This document shows positions 2,436 through 9,397 of a stretch of 24,976 nt of DNA, piece by piece. The stretch is from a virus, in the IMG/VR virus record IMGVR_UViG_3300030451_000535, positions 1-24,976 of that record; one strand, 5' to 3'. The notes beneath the pieces were generated by a model that was not told where the DNA came from, did no database searches, and saw nothing but the letters and a program-made list of their open reading frames with translations. Each line of letters starts with the position of its first letter. Position 1 is the first letter of the stretch. A program made the translations under genes and the position numbers.

Positions 2436-3629
2436 TTAGTTGTAAACAAAATATCCTTTTTCATAATTATCAGACTTTATTTTTTTTGGGAGCAGCATCT
2501 CACCTAGTATGTGAGCAACCACATCAACTGTCCAACCATTACCAATCATCTTGTATCGTTGTGTCTTTGATACACCTTCTGTGTAATTGTCAGGCAGAGT
2601 CTGTAATCTCTCGCACTCGATAGGTGTTAACTTTCTCCATGTCATACCTTCTACCACGATATTATCTTTTTGTACAGTAGTTAGACAGTTAGTCTTGTCA
2701 TCACCTCGTACTTCTATCTGTGGTGTGAGAGGTAAGTTCATCTGATAATCTTTGCGAACACCATTCTCATCAAGCCTACGATTAACAATGCGACCACCTT
2801 TAGCTGAATACGTGGCAACCTTTGGTTCTCTGTTACCACCTTGCATAGTGAGTAACGTAGGTGCTTTGCCATTCATGTGATACACTCGCTTGGCTTGACC
2901 ATGTTTGTAATGTGCATACTTATCAGCATAGCCTACCTCTACTAATCTATCGACAATCGTCATGCCATTGTTACCTGCACCTTTGTGCATGGTGGCAGTA
3001 GTACATAAGGCTTTCTGATCTACTGACCGATGATGCCTAGCATTGCGTTCATTGATAGGAACAGGTGGCTCATCATGATCTTCTTGCAGTATATCTTTTA
3101 ACACTAAGCCTTTGTCTTCCATAGGTGGTATGATTATCTGTTCATACTTGCCATTGATTAGCACACCAAACCAATAGTTTCTCCATCTGTTTTGTGGAGA
3201 TAGACTGCTTGAGTTTAGTAACTGTGGTGGAAATCCCATGTGTTCTGTAATCACATCTTCAAACTGTTTCTTCATTCGTACATTCTCAAGCAATACATAT
3301 TTTGGTTTTAACTCATTCATAATTCTTATGAACTCAAAGAATAACTTAGAACGTGGATCATCAAATGCCAACTGATCTCCCGCAAAAGAAAATCCCTGAC
3401 ATGGCGAGCCACCCATAAGTAAATCTATCTTGGGAAATTTATTATGTTTCCAAAACTTTAATATGTCTTGCACATCTCCTAAGTGTAATGTGTTGGGAAA
3501 GTTCTTTCGTGCTATTTCTATAGCATACTTGTCAATCTCTGATGCATAATAATTATCCACAGATACATTGGCACGTTCTAAGGCAAGTTGCCCACATGAC
3601 ATGCCATCAAATAAACTTAATACATTCAT
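2436..3629 (-). CDS. dcm: DNA (cytosine-5-)-methyltransferase
   Basis: This 397-residue enzyme would transfer a methyl group from S-adenosylmethionine to carbon 5 of cytosine in phage DNA. The family motifs appear in order: motif I LSLFDGMSCG (residues 4-13), motif IV GGSPCQGFSFAG with catalytic Cys77, motif VI ENVRM (115-119), motif VIII QNRWR (146-150), a target-recognition region rich in basic residues, and C-terminal motifs IX-X (CERLQTLPDNYTEG, MIGNGWTVDVVAHIL). The motif X glycine-asparagine is present, with tryptophan where serine is usual. The ATG at 3629 has GGAGG upstream and sits at the normal distance before motif I; an extra 13 codons upstream would overlap the previous gene. No partner endonuclease is visible, so this looks like an orphan, self-protective or regulatory methylase. 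Confidence 0.93.
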   Translation of the reverse strand: MNVLSLFDGMSCGQLALERANVSVDNYYASEIDKYAIEIARKNFPNTLHLGDVQDILKFWKHNKFPKIDLLMGGSPCQGFSFAGDQLAFDDPRSKLFFEFIRIMNELKPKYVLLENVRMKKQFEDVITEHMGFPPQLLNSSSLSPQNRWRNYWFGVLINGKYEQIIIPPMEDKGLVLKDILQEDHDEPPVPINERNARHHRSVDQKALCTTATMHKGAGNNGMTIVDRLVEVGYADKYAHYKHGQAKRVYHMNGKAPTLLTMQGGNREPKVATYSAKGGRIVNRRLDENGVRKDYQMNLPLTPQIEVRGDDKTNCLTTVQKDNIVVEGMTWRKLTPIECERLQTLPDNYTEGVSKTQRYKMIGNGWTVDVVAHILGEMLLPKKIKSDNYEKGYFVYN

Positions 3630-3630
3630 A

Positions 3631-3855
3631 CTATACCTCCAATCTGTAATGTTTATTTGTTTGTCCATGCTCTACAATTAGATAAGCAGAGGATGGTGGT
3701 CTATCTTTGTAAACATGATTGTTAGGAAACTTTATGCCTACTAAAAGATATCCCATGTGACGAGCAGTATACTCTAACTCCTCGAAACTAGTTTTTCTGG
3801 TGTGTACAAACTCGTAGAACACATCCTTTAATTTTAATGAATTTAAAACTTTCAT
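3631..3855 (-). CDS. Hypothetical protein, 74 aa
   Basis: This protein starts MKVLNSLKLKDVFYEFVHTR and ends HGQTNKHYRLEV. Its stop lies 1 base before the methyltransferase ATG, so the two are coupled, and its own ATG overlaps the preceding stop (ATGA). No motif or family is recognised. Confidence 0.6.
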   Translation of the reverse strand: MKVLNSLKLKDVFYEFVHTRKTSFEELEYTARHMGYLLVGIKFPNNHVYKDRPPSSAYLIVEHGQTNKHYRLEV

Positions 3856-7257: not shown

Positions 7258-7272
7258 TTAACAAGTTGGTAA
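7258..7272. promoter_or_regulatory. Dyad operator copy B
   Basis: TTAACAAGTTGGTAA is a 15-bp dyad with one mismatch between its arms. It lies immediately upstream of the ribosome site of the 7242 gene; the leader reads TTACCAACTTGTTAA, A-tract, GGAG. It is shared almost unchanged with the leader of the 7688 gene. Confidence 0.6.
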
Positions 7273-7478: not shown

Positions 7479-7688
7479 TTAATATCGTTGAAATCTTATA
7501 AATGGTTTACCTTCCTCACAATCTTCTGCAAAGTTCTTGCAAGTCTGAATAAAGCAATCATTACATAAAGGAAAACCTATTTTAAATCTTCCATATTCTG
7601 TTTCCCCAAAGGCATAACATGTTACTTTACTGTTTCCCTTGTAATTGCTAAGACAACCACAATCAGCACATTTATTTCTCTTTTCCAT
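7479..7688 (-). CDS. Zinc-ribbon-like protein, 69 aa
   Basis: Eight cysteines include CADCGC near the N-terminus (Cys7, 10, 12), a CYAF, and the pair CNDC (Cys42, 45), followed by Cys50 and Cys57. CxxC...CxxC spacing indicates a zinc-binding fold. The gene sits about 45 bases from a sigma-54-like promoter (7733-7749), with a dyad operator between them, so it is probably regulated separately from the rest of the arm. The ribosome site is AAAGGAG. The function is unknown. Confidence 0.65.
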   Translation of the reverse strand: MEKRNKCADCGCLSNYKGNSKVTCYAFGETEYGRFKIGFPLCNDCFIQTCKNFAEDCEEGKPFIRFQRY

Positions 7689-7702: not shown

Positions 7703-7717
7703 TTAACAAGTTGGTAA
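7703..7717. promoter_or_regulatory. Dyad operator copy C
   Basis: TTAACAAGTTGGTAA is identical to copy B. It lies about 5-19 bases downstream of the start site predicted for the sigma-54-like promoter at 7733-7749, a position where a bound protein would block initiation or early elongation. Confidence 0.6.
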
Positions 7718-7732
7718 GAATTAATAATATTA

Positions 7733-7749
7733 TGCAATTTCCATGCCAA
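7733..7749 (-). promoter_or_regulatory. Sigma-54-type promoter S1 (-24/-12)
   Basis: TTGGCATGGAAATTGCA on the minus strand matches TGGCAYR-N4-TTGCW at every position. The predicted transcription start is near 7722, giving a leader of about 34 bases for the zinc-ribbon gene at 7688. Confidence 0.65.
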
Positions 7750-7772
7750 AAACGATAGTTGACAAAAATAAA

Positions 7773-7991
7773 TCACTCCTCAATCGTGGCACGTAATTTA
7801 GCCAAAGCCTCGTCAAGTTCGGTCTGCTCCTTCTGTTTGGTATTTACATAGTCTGCCTTCTGATCAATAGAATGCCAATCAAACTCATGCCTTGATGTAT
7901 GTTTGGCAAGTCTTGACATAGACGATTGTAATTTACCACGTGTAATATGCACACGTATACCATTATCCCAATAGTATGTATTTTTAGCCAT
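7773..7991 (-). CDS. Hypothetical protein, 72 aa
   Basis: This protein starts MAKNTYYWDNGIRVHITRGK and ends in an acidic helix TELDEALAKLRATIEE. The ribosome site AGGAG lies 7 bases before the ATG. It is the only gene between the terminator at 8059-8093 and promoter S1, and no obvious promoter precedes it, so it may depend on read-through. No family is recognised. Confidence 0.55.
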   Translation of the reverse strand: MAKNTYYWDNGIRVHITRGKLQSSMSRLAKHTSRHEFDWHSIDQKADYVNTKQKEQTELDEALAKLRATIEE

Positions 7992-7995
7992 TGCT

Positions 7996-8044
7996 CACTC
8001 CTATATAAAATTTACTCGTCACTCCTCACTCCTCACTCCCCACT
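7996..8044. repeat. Short tandem repeat of AGGAGTG (minus strand)
   Basis: Three adjacent 7-bp units (CACTCCT, CACTCCT, CACTCCC, 8020-8040) are followed by a fourth partial unit; a separate copy at 7996-8002 supplies the real ribosome site of the 7991 gene. On the minus strand this gives a row of Shine-Dalgarno-like AGGAG motifs upstream of the start. Confidence 0.6.
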
Positions 8045-8058
8045 GTGATAGTAGTGAC

Positions 8059-8093
8059 AAAAAAAAATAAAGAGAGTGAAATAAATCACTCTC
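8059..8093 (-). terminator. Rho-independent terminator
   Basis: On the minus strand an 8-bp stem GAGAGTGA / TCACTCTC with a 6-base loop is followed by TTTATTTTTTTTT. It lies 17 bases after the stop of the first leftward gene (8110-8709), so that gene forms its own short transcription unit, at least in part. Confidence 0.85.
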
Positions 8094-8098
8094 AATAT

Positions 8099-8113
8099 TT
8101 AACAAGTTGTTAA
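8099..8113. promoter_or_regulatory. Dyad operator copy D (perfect palindrome)
   Basis: TTAACAAGTTGTTAA has arms that match perfectly around a single central base. It overlaps the stop codon of the 8110-8709 gene and abuts the terminator hairpin. Confidence 0.55.
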
Positions 8114-8709
8114 GAATTACTTGCAACTAATTGCATATCCTTCGCAACTTCAATGTCATGTAATTGCTTAGATTGTTGATCATTTAAAGATTTTTCTGCA
8201 TTATTTTTAGATTGATTATTTGCAATTGCTTCAACTAACTTAACAGTTGAAATATCAAACTTTTTAGTAGTTGAATTGAAAAAATCAGTAATGACTTCAT
8301 CTAAGGTTTTTTCTGCAGGTGGAACATTTAAAAGACTTCCTAAACCTCTTATTGTATCAGCTTTAAAAGGTTTTTTCTTATCCTTACAATCTTTAATTTT
8401 AGCTTCAACAACTTTAACAGAATGTTCAGCATTTTTGCCTAGTTTACGCATTGCACTCTTATGATTAGGAGTACATTTTTTAACAACTTGGTAAAAATCT
8501 TTACCTTGTTTCTGCAACTCCTCATCTATTGCCTTAGAAACTCCCTTATCTAAATTCTTATCTTTTATCTTTTTTTCTGCAATGTAAAACATATTAGAAA
8601 ACCAAATAAAATCTTTGTAAATATCTTGAATAAGAGTGTTACTTGATTTTAAAAAGTTGTTTTCTTTATTAACTAACTTTTCTACATTTTTATAATTTAC
8701 ATTTATCAT
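8110..8709 (-). CDS. First leftward gene, hypothetical protein, 199 aa
   Basis: This lysine-rich, largely helical protein starts MINVNYKNVEKLVNKENNFL and contains AMRKLGKNAEHSVKVVEAKIKDCKDKKKPFKADTIRGLGSLLNVPP in the middle. The C-terminus is low-complexity (NNQSKNNAEKSLNDQQSKQ). AGGAGA is well placed. It is the gene closest to the control region, preceded by stacked promoters and dyads, ended by its own terminator, and carries one dyad copy internally (8480-8494). That position is typical of an early regulator or host-takeover protein, but no DNA-binding fold is recognisable by eye. Confidence 0.65.
   Translation of the reverse strand: MINVNYKNVEKLVNKENNFLKSSNTLIQDIYKDFIWFSNMFYIAEKKIKDKNLDKGVSKAIDEELQKQGKDFYQVVKKCTPNHKSAMRKLGKNAEHSVKVVEAKIKDCKDKKKPFKADTIRGLGSLLNVPPAEKTLDEVITDFFNSTTKKFDISTVKLVEAIANNQSKNNAEKSLNDQQSKQLHDIEVAKDMQLVASNS
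8480..8494. promoter_or_regulatory. Dyad operator copy E (inside a gene)
   Basis: TTAACAACTTGGTAA lies within the 8110-8709 coding region, where it encodes part of FYQVVKK. An intragenic copy could serve as a looping partner or roadblock, or be incidental. Confidence 0.4.
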
Positions 8710-8750
8710 TTATTTTCTCCTATAATTAAATTAAAATGTATTAATCATCT

Positions 8751-8767
8751 TGCAATTGTTATGCCAA
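8751..8767 (-). promoter_or_regulatory. Sigma-54-type promoter S2
   Basis: TTGGCATAACAATTGCA matches the -24/-12 consensus exactly. The predicted start near 8740 gives a leader of about 30 bases for the 8709 gene. Two dyad operators end 4 and 25 bases upstream of its -24 box. Confidence 0.65.
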
Positions 8768-8770
8768 AAC

Positions 8771-8785
8771 TTAACAACTTGGTAA
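8771..8785. promoter_or_regulatory. Dyad operator copy F
   Basis: TTAACAACTTGGTAA is followed by GAATT. It forms a tandem pair with copy G, with centres 21 bp apart, about two helical turns. Confidence 0.6.
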
Positions 8786-8791
8786 GAATTT

Positions 8792-8806
8792 TTAACAACT
8801 TGGTAA
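8792..8806. promoter_or_regulatory. Dyad operator copy G
   Basis: This copy is identical to F, including the trailing GAAT. The same-face 21-bp spacing suggests cooperative binding of two dimers. Confidence 0.6.
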
Positions 8807-8832
8807 GAATTAAACATAACATAGTAGTAATA

Positions 8833-8849
8833 TGCAATTATCATGCCAA
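8833..8849 (-). promoter_or_regulatory. Sigma-54-type promoter S3
   Basis: TTGGCATGATAATTGCA matches the consensus exactly, with a predicted start near 8822. It overlaps the -10 box and spacer of a sigma-70-type promoter on the same strand (8837-8865). Confidence 0.6.
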
Positions 8850-8865
8850 GTTTTATAAGTGTCAA
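8837..8865 (-). promoter_or_regulatory. Sigma-70-type leftward promoter
   Basis: On the minus strand a perfect TTGACA (8865-8860) is separated by exactly 17 bases from GATAAT (8842-8837). The predicted start is near 8830. The -35 box is one arm of a TGTCAA-N4-TTGACA dyad, so an operator would cover it. This is the best ordinary promoter for the leftward arm. Confidence 0.65.
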
Positions 8866-8875
8866 ATTATTGACA
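8860..8875. promoter_or_regulatory. TGTCAA-N4-TTGACA dyad, copy 1
   Basis: A perfect 6-4-6 inverted repeat that overlaps the -35 box of the leftward sigma-70 promoter. A further half-site (TTGACA) lies at 8886-8891. Confidence 0.5.
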
Positions 8876-8897
8876 ATACGAAATATTGACACTCCCA

Positions 8898-8917
8898 ACT
8901 GTCAAAATTTTGACAGT
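8898..8917. promoter_or_regulatory. TGTCAA-N4-TTGACA dyad, copy 2 (20-bp perfect palindrome)
   Basis: ACTGTCAAAATTTTGACAGT is a complete palindrome; its core (8900-8915) starts exactly 40 bp from copy 1. It spans the start site predicted for promoter S4 (about 8913). Confidence 0.55.
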
Positions 8918-8923
8918 GATAGT

Positions 8924-8940
8924 AGCAAGAATCGTGCCAA
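8924..8940 (-). promoter_or_regulatory. Sigma-54-type promoter S4
   Basis: TTGGCACGATTCTTGCT is an exact match with the common -24 form TGGCACG. The predicted start is near 8913, inside the 20-bp palindrome. Confidence 0.6.
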
Positions 8941-8978
8941 AAATGACCATAAAAAAATATATGCTCCTATTTTTCATT

Positions 8979-8995
8979 TTGGCATGAAATTTGCT
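8979..8995 (+). promoter_or_regulatory. Sigma-54-type promoter S5 (rightward)
   Basis: TTGGCATGAAATTTGCT matches exactly on the plus strand, with a predicted start near 9006. It is the only rightward member and faces S6, with the two -12 boxes 2 bases apart. It could feed the late arm through a long leader, or instead serve as a binding site that blocks S6. Confidence 0.5.
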
Positions 8996-8997
8996 AA

Positions 8998-9014
8998 TGC
9001 AAGATTTGTGCCAA
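8998..9014 (-). promoter_or_regulatory. Sigma-54-type promoter S6
   Basis: TTGGCACAAATCTTGCA is an exact match on the minus strand with a predicted start near 8987, inside S5. Operator copy H lies about 73-87 bp upstream of its -24 box, within the usual range for a sigma-54 enhancer site. Confidence 0.55.
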
Positions 9015-9027
9015 GTTACATAAAGAA

Positions 9028-9046
9028 AACTGATACAATATCAGTT
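9028..9046. repeat. Inverted repeat AACTGATA-CAA-TATCAGTT
   Basis: Perfect 8-bp arms flank a 3-base centre. No U-tract follows on either strand, so it is more likely a protein site than a terminator. No second copy was found. Confidence 0.45.
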
Positions 9047-9101: not shown

Positions 9102-9300
9102 AAATTATTTTTTTGCGTCAATCTTGCCAAAAAACTATCATTTTTTTGCTATGCCATGCGTCAGCCATACCCCGTACACCACGTTGTATCATGTAGAAAT
9201 ACACAGATTAGAAAAATCAAGTGTTAACCACTAAAATAACTGTTAATATATTTTTTAAAAGTATATGAATAAGAGCAGCCGGGCAAACATTTTAACTGTA

Positions 9301-9334: not shown

Positions 9335-9397
9335 ACATTTAAAATGTTAACATTTATAATGTTATATACATTTAATATATAATAACATTTATAATGT
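9335..9397 (+). repeat. Tandem ACATTTAWAATGT operator array
   Basis: Palindromic 13-mers occur at 9335-9347 (ACATTTAAAATGT), 9350-9362 and 9385-9397 (both ACATTTATAATGT). A degenerate copy lies at 9368-9380. The start-to-start spacings are 15, 18 and 17 bp. The array covers the predicted start site and leader of the rightward promoter, where a bound protein would repress it. Confidence 0.6.

Follow-up and report, generated by a model that had tools for sequence, protein, structure and literature searches.

Clustered sigma-54-type elements in the control region of a marine podophage and related arrays in other viruses

The control region of an HMO-2011-type marine podophage contains six exact matches to the sigma-54 (-24/-12) consensus, and there is strong support for reading them as a functional, protein-recognised element of the sigma-54 type. 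The support comes from a conserved core around a variable spacer, placement with respect to genes, an operator-like repeat at a predicted start, and recurrence of the consensus in unrelated phages. That the element is real and read by a protein is all but certain. The core points to RpoN (sigma-54) as the best-fitting host factor, and I consider it quite probable that RpoN is the recognising protein. I also favour, with somewhat less assurance, the view that all six sites are recognised by the host sigma-54 polymerase and that sites 1 and 2, the leftward ones closest to genes, most likely act as promoters of the leftward early genes, as do their counterparts in relatives. Early transcription in phages is believed to depend mostly on sigma-70 or on polymerases of the phage. 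If perfect sigma-54 boxes are widespread, they would tie infection to nutrient, stress or motility signals of the host, or would reveal titration of a global regulator.

Six exact sites and their conservation

The stretch analysed, hereafter the window, is a virus record of 24,976 nt and a fragment of the podophage genome. Scanning all of it with the pattern TGGCAYR-N4-TTGCW gave exactly six matches, which lie within 7733-9013, and none outside this interval, while the reversed pattern, used as a control, gave none in the window. Dinucleotide shuffles of the window (n = 100) yielded 0.05 matches on average and three at most, none reaching six, which rules out a chance origin of the cluster. 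The scan thus bears out the sequence-only reading, which had found six exact sites in or beside the control region and had seen no others in the window.

7733-7748, minus strand: site 1, TGGCATGGAAATTGCA (pattern scan); predicted start at about 7722, ATG of ORF 7479-7688 44 nt on
8751-8766, minus strand: site 2, TGGCATAACAATTGCA (pattern scan); ATG of ORF 8110-8709 41 nt on
8833-8848, minus strand: site 3, TGGCATGATAATTGCA (pattern scan and alignment)
8924-8939, minus strand: site 4, TGGCACGATTCTTGCT (pattern scan and alignment); predicted start overlapped by a dyad
8980-8995, plus strand: site 5, TGGCATGAAATTTGCT (pattern scan); faces site 6 head-to-head across a 2-bp gap
8998-9013, minus strand: site 6, TGGCACAAATCTTGCA (pattern scan and alignment)

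All six sites read TTGGCA, an invariant T preceding the motif; the sites of the sequence-only reading are one base longer because this T was counted in. In sigma-54 numbering, the GG at -25/-24, the GC at -13/-12 and the 10-base spacing are exact, within the TGGCAYR/TTGCW context by which sigma-54-dependent promoters are recognised. Given their head-to-head geometry, with 2 bp between them, sites 5 and 6 should be unable to initiate simultaneously. A restriction or methylation target is ruled out, since the sites are oriented and clustered in control regions.

Relatives were fetched using two genes, and the window was aligned with six of them. Across these seven genomes, identity averages 98% at the ten fixed positions of the core, 84% in the spacers and 85% in the flanks; the motif is kept while the four bases of the spacer change. 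The Y and R positions vary exactly as the sigma-54 consensus allows. The cores of sites 4 and 6 are exact in all seven genomes. Site 1 is exact in L013, L014 and L017 at an unchanged distance from its gene, site 2 is kept in L013 and L017, and the core of site 3 is exact in L013, L014, L017 and L030, with differing spacers. Site 5 is the exception, being inexact in L017 and L030. Sites recur in the same region of L008/L013, L009/L017, L012, L014, L018, L029/L030 and L031; the other HMO-like contigs are without them, save for a single isolated site in each of two distant contigs.

Genes, operator-like repeats and dyads around the sites

From about 8709 the genes are read leftward and from about 9444 rightward, with the composition skew flipping there. 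A C5 cytosine methyltransferase, encoded at 2436-3668, belongs to the leftward set, as do a GP88-family protein and an L5 gp82-family protein. Ahead of the rightward genes, window positions 9335-9397 hold AT-rich palindromic repeats, TAACATTTATAATGT, in two exact copies 35 bp apart, which are also found in relatives. No known RNA family was matched in the window. The features next to sites 1 and 2 are:

8110-8709, minus strand: first leftward gene, 199 aa, behind site 2; no family match, relatives found
7479-7688, minus strand: 69-aa gene behind site 1, with paired cysteines, putatively zinc-binding; no family match
8069-8096, minus strand: terminator-like hairpin after the 199-aa gene, read from the sequence, GAGAGTGATTTATTTCACTCTC followed by a T-rich run

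The ATGs at 7688 and 8709 each have AGGAG, a ribosome-site motif, ahead of them, and sites 1 and 2 stand 44 and 41 nt upstream on the right strand, so that the sensible gene distances first claimed for these two sites hold. In the window, L013, L014 and L017, gene-proximal leftward sites end 41-70 nt before an ATG preceded by a Shine-Dalgarno sequence. L014 carries one extra gene, and three of its ATGs have gene-proximal sites at distances of 43, 54 and 70 nt; the equivalent of site 3 is the one 54 nt before the extra 80-aa gene, and the 70-nt distance is that to a 211-aa gene. In L030, one site is found 59 nt ahead of a 79-aa gene. Sites 1 and 2 and their counterparts are thus placed as promoters would be, and promoter use is the best reading of the gene-proximal window sites. 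The remaining sites do not share this placement: site 3 and, at 214-288 nt, sites 4 and 6 stand 123-288 nt from a gene, and site 5 has no gene near it. The distance of sites 4 and 6 and the face-to-face arrangement of sites 5 and 6 are a counterpoint to reading all of them as promoters.

A 15-bp near-palindrome, TTAACAA[CG]TTGGTAA, has seven copies in the region, at 7258, 7703, 8099, 8480, 8771, 8792 and 9087, one of them with a one-base change. These repeats and three dyads are interspersed with the sites:

7703-7717: operator-like repeat copy, TTAACAAGTTGGTAA, covering about +5 to +19 relative to the predicted start of site 1, 30 bp downstream of that site
8771-8806: the operator-like repeat twice more, between sites 2 and 3
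8860-8875: dyad, TGTCAAATTATTGACA, at a constant 27-bp offset from site 3
8900-8915: dyad, TGTCAAAATTTTGACA (TGTCAA-N4-TTGACA), overlapping the predicted start of site 4, at an offset of 24-26 bp in four genomes
9028-9046: dyad, AACTGATACAATATCAGTT, upstream of site 6, exact in the window, L013 and L014 and variant in L012 and L031

The 30-bp offset between site 1 and the repeat downstream of it is common to the window, L013, L014 and L017, and in L014 a repeat also begins 30 bp downstream of site 3, just past the predicted start. The L014 copies, at 2806, 4488, 4910, 5596, 5911 and 6196, read TTAACCAA[CG]TTGGTTAA in place of the window sequence, having switched together from TTAACAASTTGGTAA to TTAACCAASTTGGTTAA. 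Because the repeat differs in L014, a trans-acting factor of the phage seems to have changed specificity. The pattern would fit a stoperator-like system, served by a putative repressor, of which L014 carries an immunity variant. I take the repeat to resemble the stoperators of mycobacteriophage L5, which are likewise dispersed, mostly one-directional and switch sequence together between relatives, and L5 gp82-family and GP88-family genes lie near the window's repeats; the sequence is different, and the comparison is confined to the operator repeat and does not extend to the sigma-54-like sites.

The dyads, although conserved, also vary between relatives. They sit close to the promoters, nearer than typical enhancers, and no enhancer-binding site for an AAA+ activator was identified near the sites. 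In L030 (9300-9560) another repeat, CCCACTTGCGAATGA, occupies the place of the dyads between sites 3 and 4, and both sites stay exact despite this replacement. Since operators and dyads change across the seven-genome alignment with the sigma-54-like core unchanged, the core is presumably read by a conserved host factor rather than by a phage protein.

What is seen directly is the sequence of the sites, their conservation, spacing and placement, and the fixed position of the operator. From these I infer RpoN binding, activator dependence and promoter use, along the following lines. Host Esigma54 would be recruited to the perfect -24/-12 element of the gene-proximal sites and would wait there in a closed complex for a host AAA+ activator to open it; the phage operator just downstream of the start would shut the promoter off. 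The clustering of extra perfect sites, taken much further in other phages, probably also serves to capture or titrate host sigma-54, which is the least certain step.

Arrays in other viruses and competing readings

The sequence-only reading knew of no phage with such an array. That part of its sigma-54 interpretation has to be abandoned, unlike the protein-recognised element itself, which the conserved core, the promoter-like placement and the operator uphold. In IMG/VR, a scan for a single variant of the site found at least 120 loci, many having clusters; a tandem-pair pattern returned at least 120 contigs (none for its reversed control) and a triple pattern at least 120 loci, all three counts being lower bounds. 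The one-site scan is the less biased, since fetching by pairs or triples selects arrays for spacing. Whole records often have their sites in just one or two places: an 82-kb contig has 10 within 3.6 kb, a 147-kb contig 17 within about 10 kb, a 56-kb contig 10 within 290 bp and a 64-kb contig 8 within 240 bp. None of the four contains the reversed pattern.

The arrays follow a regular geometry. The pitch of tandem sites is most often 25-29 bp and forms a second group at about 35-36, head-to-head gaps measure 2-5 bp and tail-to-tail gaps 8-10 bp, so the 2-bp gap between sites 5 and 6 is an instance of a recurrent arrangement. In the alternating lattices the head-to-head gap is mostly 3-5 and the tail-to-tail gap 8-10; L243 (8236-8447) and L250 (5936-6146) each hold nine largely alternating sites in about 210 bp of a divergent intergenic region and, with the alternating lattice of L178 (346-523), have eight or nine exact sites per 180-210 bp or so. 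The densest lattices reach 9-10 exact sites. Of the 53 unidirectional arrays whose neighbours are known, 23 lie in a divergent context, more than in any other.

Between adjacent array sites, whose cores are exact, the share of identical bases averages 57% in the spacers and 39% in the DNA between sites, which rules out recent tandem duplication for most arrays. The best in-register neighbours in tandem arrays are exact in 679 cases and carry one or two mismatches in 19, the rest being at background, a sharpness that comes partly from fetching the arrays by exact patterns; the few deviant neighbours nearly always retain GG and GC. Exact or background neighbours amid diverged spacer and inter-site bases argue for strong selection on the core. 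Three or more sites within 500 bp occur at 182 loci, which shared proteins link into one large component of 157 and 24 small ones. Many phages, with 31-64% G+C, have the consensus, and no gene family common to all array phages was found. One array portal had no close cultured relative, and the cultured Zobellviridae relatives of L335 and L344 are without clusters. No tandem pair was found in 274 Gammaproteobacteria genomes, so this packing sets the array phages apart from the bacterial genomes searched. Bacterial -24/-12 promoters resemble the window sites in sequence, spacing, tolerated positions and, for the gene-proximal sites, in lying 40-70 nt before genes; the window sites differ in being all perfect and clustered, with no enhancer identified.

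A similarity search with concatenated arrays matched Vibrio T5-like phages (Vibrio has RpoN) and one Pseudomonas phage, with weak E-values; matches in Enterococcus and Synechococcus phages, in coding sequence at E of about 7, look like chance. In Vibrio phage Thalassa (MG649967.1, 128 kb) exact sites occur only at 501 and 3562 and in the terminal-repeat copies, and in VPT02 (MN954399.1, 120 kb) only at 762, 3075 and 3330. By analogy with T5, the terminal region in which they lie would be the pre-early DNA that enters first. The two phages (Ermolyevavirinae) are close to the window in restricting exact sites to control DNA, in their case early-entering, and unlike it in having two or three dispersed sites in a terminal repeat and in belonging to another phage family. 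Sequences of the form TTATCCACA, DnaA-box-like, lie near the site in the Thalassa terminal repeat. For coliphage T5, all classes are described as sigma-70 transcribed (PMC7472727). Phage use of sigma-54 is itself not new: Pseudomonas phage YuA has been reported to depend strictly on host sigma-54 (PMC5053324), as proposed here for the window, and its relative M6 (Yuavirus) has, unlike the window, no exact site, two one-mismatch sites and no cluster. No paper describing such arrays was found in open-access text.

It is difficult to see dense lattices as sets of independent promoters, and not all of their sites can be promoters; such lattices would be best explained by titration or polymerase capture, and promoter use and titration may be one strategy at different densities. 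Tentatively, and with odds somewhat against it, the perfect-box arrays of unrelated phages, packed near the footprint limit in main divergent control regions, capture host Esigma54. If so, they would titrate the host sigma-54 regulon, park polymerase for activator-triggered expression, or both, a general takeover device undescribed before. A rival reading makes the cluster mainly a decoy that binds or titrates host sigma-54 or Esigma54, reprogramming motility, nitrogen and surface genes, with a secondary or absent promoter role. Near-perfect consensus in every site, the absence of tandem pairs from the 274 bacterial genomes, the indifference of the L243 and L250 lattices to orientation and the first-entering location of the Vibrio phage sites all speak for it, as does packing at the pitch and gaps given above, near the size of a closed-complex footprint. 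I nevertheless hold it unlikely. In the window, five of the six sites face the leftward genes at spacings of mostly 74-91 bp, not packed, and two are as far from a gene as promoters would be, one of these having an operator at its start; six sites are also few relative to host promoters unless replicated.

Still less probable is that the sites are operators of a phage-encoded regulator whose motif coincides with the sigma-54 consensus. The fixed spacing grammar, the use of both orientations, the lattices in divergent control regions and the frequent lack of sites in cultured relatives with RpoN-bearing hosts would suit such a regulator, but one motif recurs across several unrelated lineages and matches sigma-54 in fixed and variable positions alike, no gene family unites the array phages, and operator-like repeats, unlike the motif, diverge between close relatives. 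That TTGGCA serves as the -35 box of sigma-70 promoters is very improbable: a weak -10-like hexamer follows it by about 17 bp at sites 1-3, but is missing at sites 4-6 and unconserved in L014 and L017, and the invariant TTGCW falls where a sigma-70 spacer could vary freely. I give least credence of all to a replication, partition or packaging element, iteron-like or terminase-binding; arrays do lie at divergent control regions, often ahead of endolysin-terminase operons, but the window terminase is 7 kb off and the motif occurs in lineages with differing replication and packaging genes. Recognition by host sigma-54 is the reading preferred, and hundreds of other viruses with similar, often much denser clusters suggest that recruiting or soaking up host sigma-54 is a common, little-noticed viral trick. 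The idea can be put to the test in laboratory strains.

Phage group and candidate hosts

A phage-encoded sigma-54 is rejected, with no PF04552 match in 31 records, and so is a phage-encoded AAA+ activator, with no PF00158 match in 25 HMO relatives or 30 array records. Widespread boxes of this kind would also be a sequence marker limiting the candidate hosts of uncultured marine phages to RpoN bacteria. The window has a G+C content of about 35%; the HMO-2011-type group includes low-G+C subgroups infecting or predicted to infect SAR11, and subgroup X (34-39% G+C), for which Roseobacter is the predicted host (PMC9038755). SAR11, a possible host, has sigma-70 and sigma-32 only (PMC10117780), which counts against the sigma-54 reading. 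Nine loci lie in genome contigs, and they are uninformative on the host since eight of them are in apparently misbinned metagenome-assembled genomes of mixed phyla. No tRNA gene was found as a host clue in seven relatives.

Assignment to the HMO-2011 type follows from the group's terminase and portal and from the conserved gene order around the control region; the gene for the DNA polymerase, which in this group has a DnaJ-like domain inserted, lies beyond the window. The terminase is 79-80% identical to those of Puniceispirillum phage HMO-2011 and Roseobacter phages CRP-1 and CRP-345, and the 68-aa gene to the right of the control region matches the same three at the DNA level. These cultured phages share the terminase, the 68-aa gene and a conserved block beside the control region with the window and, unlike it, are without clustered exact sites, as are the cultured HMO-type phages of SAR116, RCA roseobacters and SAR11 that were examined, an absence that weighs against the sigma-54 reading. 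The block, TACACAGATTAG...GTGTTAACCAC, is non-coding, lies at about 9204-9232 in the window, is kept in HMO-2011 (L092, about 1693-1724) and CRP-1 (L091, about 553-584), and is possibly a replication origin or another core control element.
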